Positions 7,675 through 12,195 of a DNA stretch of 35,731 nt are shown piece after piece. The notes beneath the pieces are model-generated. The model worked only from the letters and a program-made list of their open reading frames with translations, was not told the origin of the DNA and did not search any database. The number at the start of each line of letters is the position of its first letter. Position 1 is the stretch's first letter. The position numbers were made by a program, and so were the translations under genes. The stretch is from Betaproteobacteria bacterium (GTDB lineage: Bacteria; Pseudomonadota; Gammaproteobacteria; Burkholderiales; JACQAP01): positions 1-35,731 of the forward strand of contig JANXPQ010000002.1 in NCBI GenBank assembly GCA_025357235.1, in the 5' to 3' direction.

Positions 7675-8022
7675 ATGGGAAAACTCACCACGCACGTTCT
7701 CGACACGGCACACGGCCGCCCCGCGGCCGGCATGCTGATCGAACTGCGCCGGCTTCCGGCGGATGAAGTCATCTTCTCGGCACGCAGCGATGTGGACGGA
7801 CGTTGCGCACGCCCGTTGCTCGAGGGCGCATCCTTCATCCCCGGCGAATACGAACTGGTCTTCCATACCGCCGATTATTTTCGCGCGCTCGGCGTGAAGC
7901 TTTCCGATCCGCCCTTCCTCGACCGCGTCGTGCTGCGCTTCGGCCTCGCCGGCACCGACCAGCACTATCACGTGCCATTGCTGGTGTCGCCGTGGAGTTA
8001 CTCCACTTACCGCGGCAGTTGA
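7675..8022 (+). CDS. uraH: 5-hydroxyisourate hydrolase (transthyretin-like)
   Basis: MGKLTTHVLDTAHGRPAAGM and C-terminal HYHVPLLVSPWSYSTYRGS signatures. Confidence 0.97.
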   Translation: MGKLTTHVLDTAHGRPAAGMLIELRRLPADEVIFSARSDVDGRCARPLLEGASFIPGEYELVFHTADYFRALGVKLSDPPFLDRVVLRFGLAGTDQHYHVPLLVSPWSYSTYRGS

Positions 8023-8024
8023 AC

Positions 8025-9494
8025 ATGGCGCAGCGCACCCATATCCGGTTCATCCTCGACGGCGAAGTCGTCAACGTCCACGACATTGCGCCGACGGTCA
8101 CGCTGCTCGAATACCTGAGGGAGAAGCTCGGCCGCACCGGCACCAAGGAAGGTTGCGCCGAGGGAGACTGCGGCGCCTGCACGGTAGTGATCGGCGAACC
8201 CGCCGCCGGAAAAATCAGCTATCGCGCGATCAACTCCTGCATCCGCTTCCTGCCCACGCTCGACGGCAAGGAAATCGTCACCGTGGAAAACCTGAAGGCC
8301 GCCGACGGCGGGCTGCATCCGGTGCAGCAGGCGATGGTCGACCACCACGCCTCGCAATGCGGCTTCTGCACCCCCGGCTTCGTCATGTCGCTGTTCGGCC
8401 TGTATCTGAACGAAACGGCGCCGCAGCGCGAAGATGTCGTGCGGGCGCTGTCGGGAAACCTGTGCCGCTGCACCGGCTACCGGCCGATCATCGATGCCGG
8501 CTGCCGGATGAATGACTATGCGCATCCGGCGTCCTGGAGCCGTACCTATGCGCGCGACACGAAGCGATACGAGGCATTGCAGGCCATCGCCGCGACCGAC
8601 ACCGTCTCGCTCGGCGGCGGCGCCGGTTATTGCGCGCCGGTCTCGATCGACGAGCTCGCGCGGCTCTGCGCAGACAATCCGCAGGCGTTGCTGCTCGCCG
8701 GCGGTACGGATGTCGGCCTCTGGGTCACCAAGCAGTTGCGCGATCTGCCGATGCTCATCTATACCGGCAACGTCGCTGAGTTGAAGAGCGTACGCGAAGG
8801 CGGCAATGCCATCGAGATCGGTGCAGCGGTCAGCCTCACCGACGCCTATGCGGCAATCGTTGCACGCTATCCCATGCTGGCGGAGCTGGCGGAGCGTTTC
8901 GGTTCGCCCCCGGTGCGCAATTCCGGCACGCTCGGCGGCAACGTCGCCAACGGCTCGCCGATCGGCGATTCCATGCCTTTCATGCTGGCCCTCGGCGTCA
9001 CCGTGAAGCTGCGCCGGGCCGGCGGCGAACGCGAAATGCCGCTCGAGGATTTCTATCTCGGCTACCAGAAGAAGGCACTGCAACCCGGCGAGTTCGTCGA
9101 AGCCGTGCGCATTCCGCTCTCGCCCGCGGGGCGCCGCTTTGCCAGCTACAAGATTTCCAAGCGTTTCGACCAGGACATCTCCGCGCTTTGCGGCGCTTAC
9201 GCGTTCGACCTCGACAACGGTCGCATCGCGAAAGTCCGCATCGCCTATGGCGGCATGGCGGCCGTACCGAAGCGCGCACTGCAGACGGAGGCGGCGCTCA
9301 CCGGCCAGCCCTGGTCGCGCGCCGCCATGGAAGCCGCGCTGCCCGCGCTCGCGCTGGATTACGCGCCGCTCTCCGACATGCGCGCCAGCGCCGGATACCG
9401 CATGCAAGTCGCGCAGAACCTGCTGCTGCGCTTCTTTGCCGAGCACAGCGGCAAACCGGTGCCGACCCGCGTGACCGAACTCGAGGAGCATTAA
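8025..9494 (+). CDS. xdhA: xanthine dehydrogenase small subunit (2Fe-2S and FAD domains)
   Basis: GCAEGDCGACTVVIGE and CGFCTPGF...GNLCRCTGYRPI iron-sulfur motifs; LLLAGGTDVGLWVTK and GGNVANGSPIGD FAD-domain motifs. Confidence 0.96.
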   Translation: MAQRTHIRFILDGEVVNVHDIAPTVTLLEYLREKLGRTGTKEGCAEGDCGACTVVIGEPAAGKISYRAINSCIRFLPTLDGKEIVTVENLKAADGGLHPVQQAMVDHHASQCGFCTPGFVMSLFGLYLNETAPQREDVVRALSGNLCRCTGYRPIIDAGCRMNDYAHPASWSRTYARDTKRYEALQAIAATDTVSLGGGAGYCAPVSIDELARLCADNPQALLLAGGTDVGLWVTKQLRDLPMLIYTGNVAELKSVREGGNAIEIGAAVSLTDAYAAIVARYPMLAELAERFGSPPVRNSGTLGGNVANGSPIGDSMPFMLALGVTVKLRRAGGEREMPLEDFYLGYQKKALQPGEFVEAVRIPLSPAGRRFASYKISKRFDQDISALCGAYAFDLDNGRIAKVRIAYGGMAAVPKRALQTEAALTGQPWSRAAMEAALPALALDYAPLSDMRASAGYRMQVAQNLLLRFFAEHSGKPVPTRVTELEEH

Positions 9495-9846
9495 GTGTCC
9501 TGTTCCGCTAATTCACGGCTGAAAACCCGACGAGAATCGGTGCCATGCGGTGTTACGAGTCCTTGCCGTGCGCGTCGGAGGGCGGAACAGGGTTCCCTCC
9601 GGGATGTGACCCCGAAGTCGCGCGTAGACCGGCGATTGACGCACATTGGCCAGCGCCACGGTCGCATCCCCGCAATCGGGGCCCCTGCTCCACGTTTCGC
9701 CGGCCCCTGCCACTGTCAAGGACTCGCGCCTTGCCCGACACCGATTTCGCGGGTTTTCCAACCGGTGTCAATTGGCGTTCGGATCGATCAACGAGCCGGC
9801 ATTCACAGCGTCGGCGACCGCCCGCGAATTAGCGGAACAGGACACT
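9494..9846. mobile_element. MITE-like non-coding element with perfect 21-bp terminal inverted repeats
   Basis: AGTGTCCTGTTCCGCTAATTC at 9494-9514 and its exact reverse complement GAATTAGCGGAACAGGACACT at 9826-9846. Further internal inverted segments at 9521-9542/9739-9758 and 9556-9565/9717-9726. No credible transposase ORF. Confidence 0.8.
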
Positions 9847-9849
9847 AGC

Positions 9850-12195
9850 ATGCCCGAACTCGTCCACATCTCGGTAGCCGGCCAGCCGTTGCCGCACGAA
9901 GGCGCGCCCTTGCATGTCAGCGGCGCGGCGAACTACACCGACGACATTCCGCTGCCGGACAACGCGCTGCATGTCGCGCTCGGCATGAGCACGATCACCC
10001 ACGGACGCATCAAGTCGATGGACCTTGCAGCAGTCGCCTCTGCGCCCGGCGTGGTGGCCATAGCCACCGCGTCCGATGTGCCCGGTTCCAACCTGATCGG
10101 TCCGGTGTTGCACGACGACCCGATTTTCGCCGAGTCGCTGGTGGAATTCGCCGGCCAGTCGCTGTTCGGGGTCGCGGCGACTTCGTACGGCGCCGCGCGC
10201 CGTGCGGCAAAGCTCGCACGCATCGAGTACGAAGAACTGCCGGCGATCCTCGACGTGCGCAGCGCGCTCGCGGCGAAAAGTTTCGTCGTGCCCACGCAGA
10301 CCCTGCGCCGCGGCGATCCCGAAGCGGCCATCGGCCACGCACCGCACAAGCTGAAAGGCAGCCTGGAACTCGGCGGCCAGGAACACTTCTATCTGGAAGG
10401 CCAGGTGGCGGTAGCGGTGCCGCAGGAAGACGGCGGCATGCTGATCTACAGCTCGACGCAGCACCCGACCGAGGTGCAGCACATGGTCGCGCTGGCACTG
10501 GGCAAGAAATCGCACGAGATCGTCGTGCAGTGCCGGCGCATGGGCGGTGGCTTCGGCGGCAAGGAAAGCCAGCCGGGACAATATGCCTGCGCCGCCGCGG
10601 TGATCGCCGCCCGCACGCGCCGTCCGGTGAAGCTGCGCCTCGATCGCGATGCCGACATGATCATGACCGGCAAGCGCCATGATTGCCTGATCGAGTATGA
10701 AGCGGGCTTTGATGACAACGGCCGTATCACCGGCGTAAAAATCATGCTCGCCTCGCGCTGCGGTTTTTCCGCGGATCTTTCGGGGCCGGTCAACGACCGC
10801 GCCATCTGCCATGTCGACAACTGCTATTTCCTCGAGCATGTCGAAATCGTTTCGCACCGCTGCAAGACCAACACGGTGTCGAATACCGCGTTCCGCGGCT
10901 TCGGCGGCCCGCAAGGCATGGTGGCGATCGAGGCGGTAATGGACGACATCGCGCGCAAGCTGCGCCGTGATCCGCTGGACGTGCGCCGCGCCAATTTCTA
11001 CGGAACCACCGATCGCAACATCACGCCTTACGGCATGGTGGTGGAGGACAACATCATCCCGCGCATCGCCGACGAACTCGAGGCGAGCAGCGATTACCGC
11101 GAACGCCGCCGGCGCATCCAGGAGTTCAATGCCGAAAGCCCGGTCCTGCGGCGCGGCATCGCGCTCACGCCGGTCAAGTTCGGCATTTCGTTCAACGCCA
11201 CGATCTACAACCAGGCCGGCGCGCTGGTGCACATCTACACCGACGGCAGCGTGATGGTGAATCACGGTGGCACCGAGATGGGACAGGGGCTGTACACCAA
11301 GGTCGCCCAGGTGGTCGCGAGCGAATTGCAGATCGACATTTCCCAGGTCCGCACCAGCAGCACCGATACCAGCAAGGTGCCGAACACGTCCGCCACCGCC
11401 GCTTCATCCGGTGCCGACCTGAACGGCAAGGCGGCGCAGGCGGCCTGCCAGACGCTGAAAGGCCGGCTGGCTGCGCTCGCCGCGGAGAAATTCGCAGTGC
11501 CAGCCGACACCGTGCGTTTCGCCGCCGGCAAGATCCTCGCCGGCAGTCACGTCATCGAATTCGGCGCACTGGTGCGCGAGGCGTACGCGGCACGCATCTC
11601 GCTGTCTTCCACCGGTTACTATAAGACACCGAAGATCCACTGGGACAAAAAAACGCTCACTGGGCGGCCCTTCTTTTATTTTGCCTATGGCGCCGCGGTA
11701 TCCGAGGTCGCCATCGACCTGCTCACTGGCGAGACCAGGCTGCTGAGGGTGGATATCCTGCACGACGTCGGCCGCTCGCTGAACCCGGCGCTCGACATCG
11801 GCCAGGTCGAAGGCGGCTTCGTGCAGGGCATGGGCTGGCTGACCTCGGAAGAACTCGTGTGGGACGCGCGCGGGCAGTTCAGGACGCACGCGCCTTCAAC
11901 TTACAAGATTCCCACGGCGGCGGACTGGCCGAAAAAATTCAACGTTCATTTGCTGGCGGACGCACCGAACCGCGAAGACACCATTTTTCGTTCCAAGGCA
12001 GTCGGCGAGCCGCCGCTGATGCTGGCGATCTCGGTACTGCATGCGATCCGCGACGCCTGCGCGAGCAGCGAGTCAGGCGCGATGCCGGCGCTGGTGGCAC
12101 CCGCCACGCCCGAATCCATCCTGCGCGCCCTTGCATCGCTGACGATTGCCCCCGCCCCGCAACCCGTTGCGGCCCTGGCAGGAGCCCGCGCATGA
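9850..12195 (+). CDS. xdhB: xanthine dehydrogenase molybdopterin-binding subunit
   Basis: GGFGGKESQPGQYACAAA, NTAFRGFGGPQGMVAIEAVMDDIA, GGTEMGQGLYTK, KAVGEPPLMLA motifs. Start at MPELVH; the ORF-track start at 9646 lies inside the element. Confidence 0.95.
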   Translation: MPELVHISVAGQPLPHEGAPLHVSGAANYTDDIPLPDNALHVALGMSTITHGRIKSMDLAAVASAPGVVAIATASDVPGSNLIGPVLHDDPIFAESLVEFAGQSLFGVAATSYGAARRAAKLARIEYEELPAILDVRSALAAKSFVVPTQTLRRGDPEAAIGHAPHKLKGSLELGGQEHFYLEGQVAVAVPQEDGGMLIYSSTQHPTEVQHMVALALGKKSHEIVVQCRRMGGGFGGKESQPGQYACAAAVIAARTRRPVKLRLDRDADMIMTGKRHDCLIEYEAGFDDNGRITGVKIMLASRCGFSADLSGPVNDRAICHVDNCYFLEHVEIVSHRCKTNTVSNTAFRGFGGPQGMVAIEAVMDDIARKLRRDPLDVRRANFYGTTDRNITPYGMVVEDNIIPRIADELEASSDYRERRRRIQEFNAESPVLRRGIALTPVKFGISFNATIYNQAGALVHIYTDGSVMVNHGGTEMGQGLYTKVAQVVASELQIDISQVRTSSTDTSKVPNTSATAASSGADLNGKAAQAACQTLKGRLAALAAEKFAVPADTVRFAAGKILAGSHVIEFGALVREAYAARISLSSTGYYKTPKIHWDKKTLTGRPFFYFAYGAAVSEVAIDLLTGETRLLRVDILHDVGRSLNPALDIGQVEGGFVQGMGWLTSEELVWDARGQFRTHAPSTYKIPTAADWPKKFNVHLLADAPNREDTIFRSKAVGEPPLMLAISVLHAIRDACASSESGAMPALVAPATPESILRALASLTIAPAPQPVAALAGARA

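Follow-up and report, generated by a model that had tools for sequence, protein, structure and literature searches.

A 353-bp mini-element with IS630-type ends between xdhA and xdhB in a betaproteobacterial genome

The xdh locus and its intergenic element

The window, by which is meant the whole stretch of 35,731 nucleotides that was analysed, harbors the genes for two subunits of xanthine dehydrogenase, xdhA and xdhB. The gap between them, from the TAA stop codon at 9492-9494 to the ATG at 9850, is filled entirely by a single element. Its length of 353 bp includes the A/T that is common to the element and its TA target. The features of the locus are as follows.

8007..9494, forward strand: xdhA, xanthine dehydrogenase small subunit (open frame, exact start not fixed); TIGR02963, 654 bits against a cut-off of 467
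9492..9494, forward strand: TAA stop codon of xdhA, the last base of which, A9494, is the first base of the element's left repeat
9494..9846, forward strand: the element, very probably an IS630-group MITE of a long subfamily; perfect 21-bp terminal inverted repeat (TIR), relatives elsewhere in the genome, empty site in genomes G002 and G003
9494..9514, forward strand: left TIR, AGTGTCCTGTTCCGCTAATTC; the consensus, AGTGTCCTGTTCCGCTGATTC, is the right end of IS630 elements at loci L040 and L042
9518..9570, forward strand: inner conserved left arm, CTGAAAACCCGACGAGAATCGGTGCC...GAGTCCTTGCCGTG; 91-92% identity in shorter copies, pairs with the inner right arm
9571..9705, no strand assigned: central hairpin module of the long copies only (this copy and that on contig C114); an alignment gap in short copies, with matches in unrelated families
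9706..9758, forward strand: inner conserved right arm, CACTGTCAAGGACTC...CACCGATTTCGCGGGTTTTC; 88-94% identity in shorter copies
9826..9846, reverse strand: right TIR
9839..9842, forward strand: AGGA, candidate Shine-Dalgarno sequence of xdhB within the right TIR, 7 nt before the ATG at 9850
9846..9847, forward strand: right copy of the TA target, placed by analogy with the 12 IS copies that lie in CTAG
9850..12195, forward strand: xdhB, xanthine dehydrogenase molybdopterin-binding subunit, 781 aa; TIGR02965, 1263 bits against a cut-off of 849.5

The two TIRs are perfect over 21 bp and 96% identical when extended to 25 bp. At the base composition of the window, only about 1.6e-5 perfect 21-bp inverted pairs would be expected at a spacing of up to 400 bp. 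An earlier, sequence-only reading of this DNA had described the perfect repeat bracketing the gap, together with two inner inverted pairs and the lack of a credible transposase frame. All three descriptions hold: the inner pairs are the conserved inner arms of related copies, and the element is non-coding, the long frames that overlap it either belonging to neighboring genes or having no support. As RNA, the full-length element has a predicted folding energy of -176 kcal/mol, compared with a mean of -139 for shuffled sequences (z = -6.5). Neither a sigma-70-like promoter nor an intrinsic terminator was found within it.

The same junction in two genomes of the same genus is free of the element, reading GAGCATTGAGCCCATG in G003 (within GAGCATTGAGCCCATGCCC) and GCGCATTGACGCCGATG in G002 (within GCGCATTGACGCCGATGCC), with 86-88% identity on both sides. 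The element at xdh is therefore an insertion. Its flanks consist of TA on the right (9846-9847) and TAA on the left, one base off, and so the target duplication is imperfect in this copy. The flanking AGCAT, formerly entertained as a target-site duplication, is rejected because the IS copies described below show CTAG/TA; under the IS630 assignment, the duplicated target would be TA.

Related copies, IS630 relatives and insertion sites

Related copies of the element are found at three other loci of its own genome, on contigs C114 (357 bp), C349 (219 bp) and C374 (223 bp), which brings the full copies there to four with that at xdh. At least two more, with the same ends and inner arms, are present in G003, on contigs C31 (221 bp) and C5 (222 bp). 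The related copies thus range from 219 to 357 bp, and shorter relics exist besides the full ones. In their alignment, the outer arms measure 25 bp, the inner arms measure about 50 bp and pair with one another, and a segment preceding the right end changes quickly. Clean CTA/TAG flanks are retained at C349 and at C31 of G003, and the flanks of several other copies have decayed. Searches of plasmid and phage collections with the element (blastn) gave no match, and no TIR was found in viral contigs. On the same C31 contig (L038:659-1553), a HigB-type toxin gene (Pfam HigB_toxin) and a helix-turn-helix antitoxin-like gene lie between two partial element ends in direct orientation, as if solo ends flank a toxin-antitoxin pair.

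The extra length of the xdh copy corresponds to the apex hairpin module of about 135 bp, which is common only to this copy and C114. The module contains GGTCGCATCCCCGC..CGGGGCCCCTGCTCC, a repeat that is also present in other families of the order. Of 120 genomes of the order, 10 carry the repeat as GGTCGCATCCCCGC..GGGGCCCCTGCTCC, and in some cases it makes up one arm of an inverted pair. The hairpin form at 9660-9691 of the window, GGTCGCATCCCC(2-12 nt)GGGGCCCCTGCTCC, is likewise seen in G074, G038, G050, G107 and others; across the 120 genomes it reaches at most seven exact copies per genome, some of them in inverted pairs. The simplest reading is that the long copies descend from an ancestor that took up this hairpin repeat a single time, an order of events that we infer.

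The relationship with IS630 comes from the terminal repeats. A search for the consensus AGTGTCCTGTTCCGCTGATTC, with YR at two positions, gave exact matches in three database genomes. In two of them, Burkholderia sp. IMCC1007 (L040) and Cupriavidus sp. IDO (L042), it agrees at 21 of 21 bp with the right end of a 1163-bp element. Each of these elements contains a single ORF, of 368 and 363 aa respectively, with DDE_3 and helix-turn-helix domains. The ORF at L040 is an IS630 transposase by NCBIfam transpos_IS630 (NF033545; 263 bits against a cut-off of 100), and its plasmid-borne relatives are annotated as members of the IS630 family. Full-length IS630 elements with ends of the same type are distributed among Burkholderia, Cupriavidus, Methylibium and others, and 12 related IS copies of 1157-1164 bp, with this type of ends, all lie in CTAG. 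Tenzen and Ohtsubo 1991, as cited in PMC2170065, name the TA within CTAG in their title as the preferred IS630 target, and TA duplication with occasional imperfect flanks has been reported for ISY100 (PMC2170065). The third genome is a betaproteobacterial MAG (L041), where the repeat forms the ends of a mini-element of 164 bp. The search for full IS elements sharing the terminal repeat, proposed when that repeat had been left without a family, thus gives the element its family name, IS630.

The four genomes of the genus yielded no matching transposase; the closest candidates reach 29% (contig C575 of the element's own genome) and 47% (G001). The own genome is a draft of 582 contigs, and the candidate partners within it are limited to the 29% match and fragments at 36-46%. 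The 47% IS630 of G001 is ruled out as a partner by its sequence, as its ends, CTAGTGTAGTGCTTCG, differ. The partner IS may have been lost or may be unassembled. At G001:C86 (L051:915-2080), an IS630 relative with these same ends, the transposase matches in two pieces that meet at one point, perhaps reflecting a frameshift. A further peculiarity concerns the transposase frames at L040:6344-7450 and L042:5073-6164, which cross the right terminal repeat and end in SGTGH. Their TAG stop lies outside the element proper and is formed by the target TA and the following G, meaning that the CTAG target supplies the stop codon of the IS630 transposase.

All six full copies in the genus are located either in the stop codon of a gene or within 20 nt after it. 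The xdh copy sits at the xdhA stop codon itself, the C349 copy at that of an MFS transporter gene, where the stop TAG is composed of TA and the G of the element end, and the C5 copy of G003 at the stop TAG of a 2-hydroxyacid dehydrogenase gene. The copies on C114 and C374 lie 3 nt past the stops of a hydrolase gene and an SDR gene, respectively, and for the C31 copy of G003 this distance is 19 nt, after a gene with a cyclase domain. Background counts over 400 kb of G003, based on crude gene calls, put 13% of CTAG and 3% of TA sites in this zone from the stop to 20 nt beyond, or about 28 of 122 CTAG and 249 of 1944 TA once gene interiors are set aside. For sites outside gene interiors, the probability of six out of six in the zone is 1.5e-4 at the CTAG rate and 4e-6 at the TA rate, values that come from a small sample and a pattern spotted before testing, with some zone sites possibly inside neighboring genes. 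A preference for gene ends beyond background is suggestive only. Within positions 1-35731 of the window, CTAG is observed 8 times against 118 expected by composition, a depletion of around 15-fold, and one of these eight is made by the element. Much of the gene-end placement is explained by this scarcity of CTAG, together with the enrichment of the surviving sites at gene ends.

Identity and origin of the element

Since its ends are shared with transposase-bearing IS630 elements that lie in CTAG targets, the element is assigned, with high confidence, as a non-autonomous IS630-group (Tc1/mariner-like) MITE, presumably mobilized by an IS630 transposase in trans and inserted into TA at the xdhA stop. 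Four observations speak directly for the MITE: its TIR is identical to that of transposase-bearing IS630 elements, its copies are dispersed, sister genomes have an empty site, and the targets follow the CTAG/TA pattern. The terminal repeats of about 21 bp would have been recognized by such a transposase, supplied in trans, which would have excised the element and pasted it into the TA at the xdhA stop codon; these steps and their timing are what we infer. The sequence-only reading had likewise proposed a MITE-like mobile element, to be abandoned if the segment were conserved at this junction in relatives and never found elsewhere. The opposite was found: the element is multi-copy at unrelated loci and absent from the sister junctions, and its TIR is common to transposase-bearing elements.

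The very stable fold, and the position between two subunits of one enzyme, are also what might be expected of a structured regulatory RNA or intercistronic attenuator that is native to the xdh operon and only looks like a MITE. G002 and G003 are nevertheless without the element at the same junction, its copies adjoin unrelated genes, its ends are of the IS630 type, and an Rfam search of 9300-10050 gave no match even at E = 1, all of which make a native RNA extremely improbable. The hairpin repeat of the central module, which other families of the order carry singly and as inverted pairs, would fit a REP/BIME or REPIN-type element with a RAYT (Y1) transposase as its mover. This too is highly improbable, given that the module is absent from most copies and that the element has outer ends of the IS630 type and TA/CTAG targets.

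Within the assignment as an IS630-group MITE, the element could be an internally deleted IS630 copy or, instead, IS630 ends captured around unrelated hairpin DNA. A deletion derivative fits the 21 bp over which its ends are identical to the right end of the IS. Against it, the IS interior next to the termini, which at L040 continues as GTTGTTAACTGAACT from the left end and TGTTCGCG from the right, shows no similarity to the element in a by-eye comparison, and internal deletion is thus the unlikely course of the two. A remote origin from IS630 through deletion and decay is possible. The IS630-group MITE described here is a new family of a kind already known, set beside RUP and Correia/NEMIS by their descriptions.

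Tolerance in the operon and comparison with known systems

The ends of the element bear on how it is accommodated between genes. At the left end, TA and the G of the element provide a stop for a gene that is hit in frame at a TA-containing stop codon. The right end reads AGGACAC-TA, by which a nearby downstream start codon gains AGGA at a fitting distance: the spacing from AGGA to the start is 7 nt at xdhB, 7 nt at L041 (GGACACTAATATG) and 8 nt at C374, where the gene encodes a GNAT protein. At L041, as read directly from the flanks, the two genes are one nt apart if the element is removed. The C349 copy lies at a convergent junction and C114 retains a native GGAGGAG, and so the supply of AGGA is not general to all copies. 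The insertion at xdh was probably tolerated because the ends leave the xdhA stop and put AGGA 7 nt before the xdhB start.

Within xdh mRNA, if it is transcribed there, the element would fold into a single long hairpin. The likeliest effect appears to be post-transcriptional, through hairpin processing and an altered xdhA:xdhB balance, and less a new promoter or terminator. In the predicted fold of the xdh RNA, AGGA pairs along its whole length with the left end. With 9480-9508 held unpaired to model a ribosome on the xdhA stop, AGGACAC opens in part: five of its seven bases become mostly unpaired, and both of its G residues mostly stay paired. Coupling through the hairpin is therefore no more than a possibility.

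A broader and rather doubtful proposal, with which the folding agrees in part, is that IS630-group ends act as portable intercistronic joints, with the stem at xdh hiding the xdhB RBS until a ribosome terminating on xdhA opens it. CTAG, scarce and enriched at gene ends, would be targeted; entry would leave a stop of TA and G, and exit would supply AGGA just before the target, such that operons could be split with both genes intact. If true, an insertion of 350 nt would leave translational coupling in place. A literature search for an IS630 MITE carrying a stop codon and a Shine-Dalgarno sequence returned only a paper on a pneumococcal repeat, the available text of which does not describe this arrangement. 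The survival of scarce CTAG at gene ends, along with ends that re-create stop and RBS signals, offers a concrete reason for the tolerance of IS630-type mini-elements inside operons, and bears on the build-up of mobile DNA between co-transcribed genes.

Among known kinds, RUP with IS630-Spn1 and the Correia/NEMIS elements come closest by description. According to PMC2229807 and PMC3049150, RUP (repeat unit of pneumococcus) is a Gram-positive repeat 107 bp long, with a TIR of 9 bp and copies that number about 108; like the present element, it is small and non-coding, with a TIR matching an IS630-family IS, a TA target and a proposed mobilization in trans. The present element differs in its size of 219-357 bp, its TIR of 21-25 bp, its few copies, its interior and the lack of a partner IS found in the genome. 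The Correia/NEMIS/CREE repeats of Neisseria share with it, by description, TA at the ends, a TIR of more than 20 bp, a long transcript hairpin and two size classes set apart by an internal segment (PMC2229807). CREE can create promoters and bind IHF and RNase III (PMC2649163), whereas no promoter-like site was found in our element. The L040-type IS630 elements (1157-1164 bp) agree with it in terminal repeats and in CTAG/TA targets but carry a transposase, which the mini-element lacks, and an interior that is unrelated by inspection. Finally, a hairpin repeat resembling those of REP/BIME resides inside the central module; unlike REP/BIME, however, the element has outer ends of the IS630 type, and among its copies only the two long ones contain this repeat.
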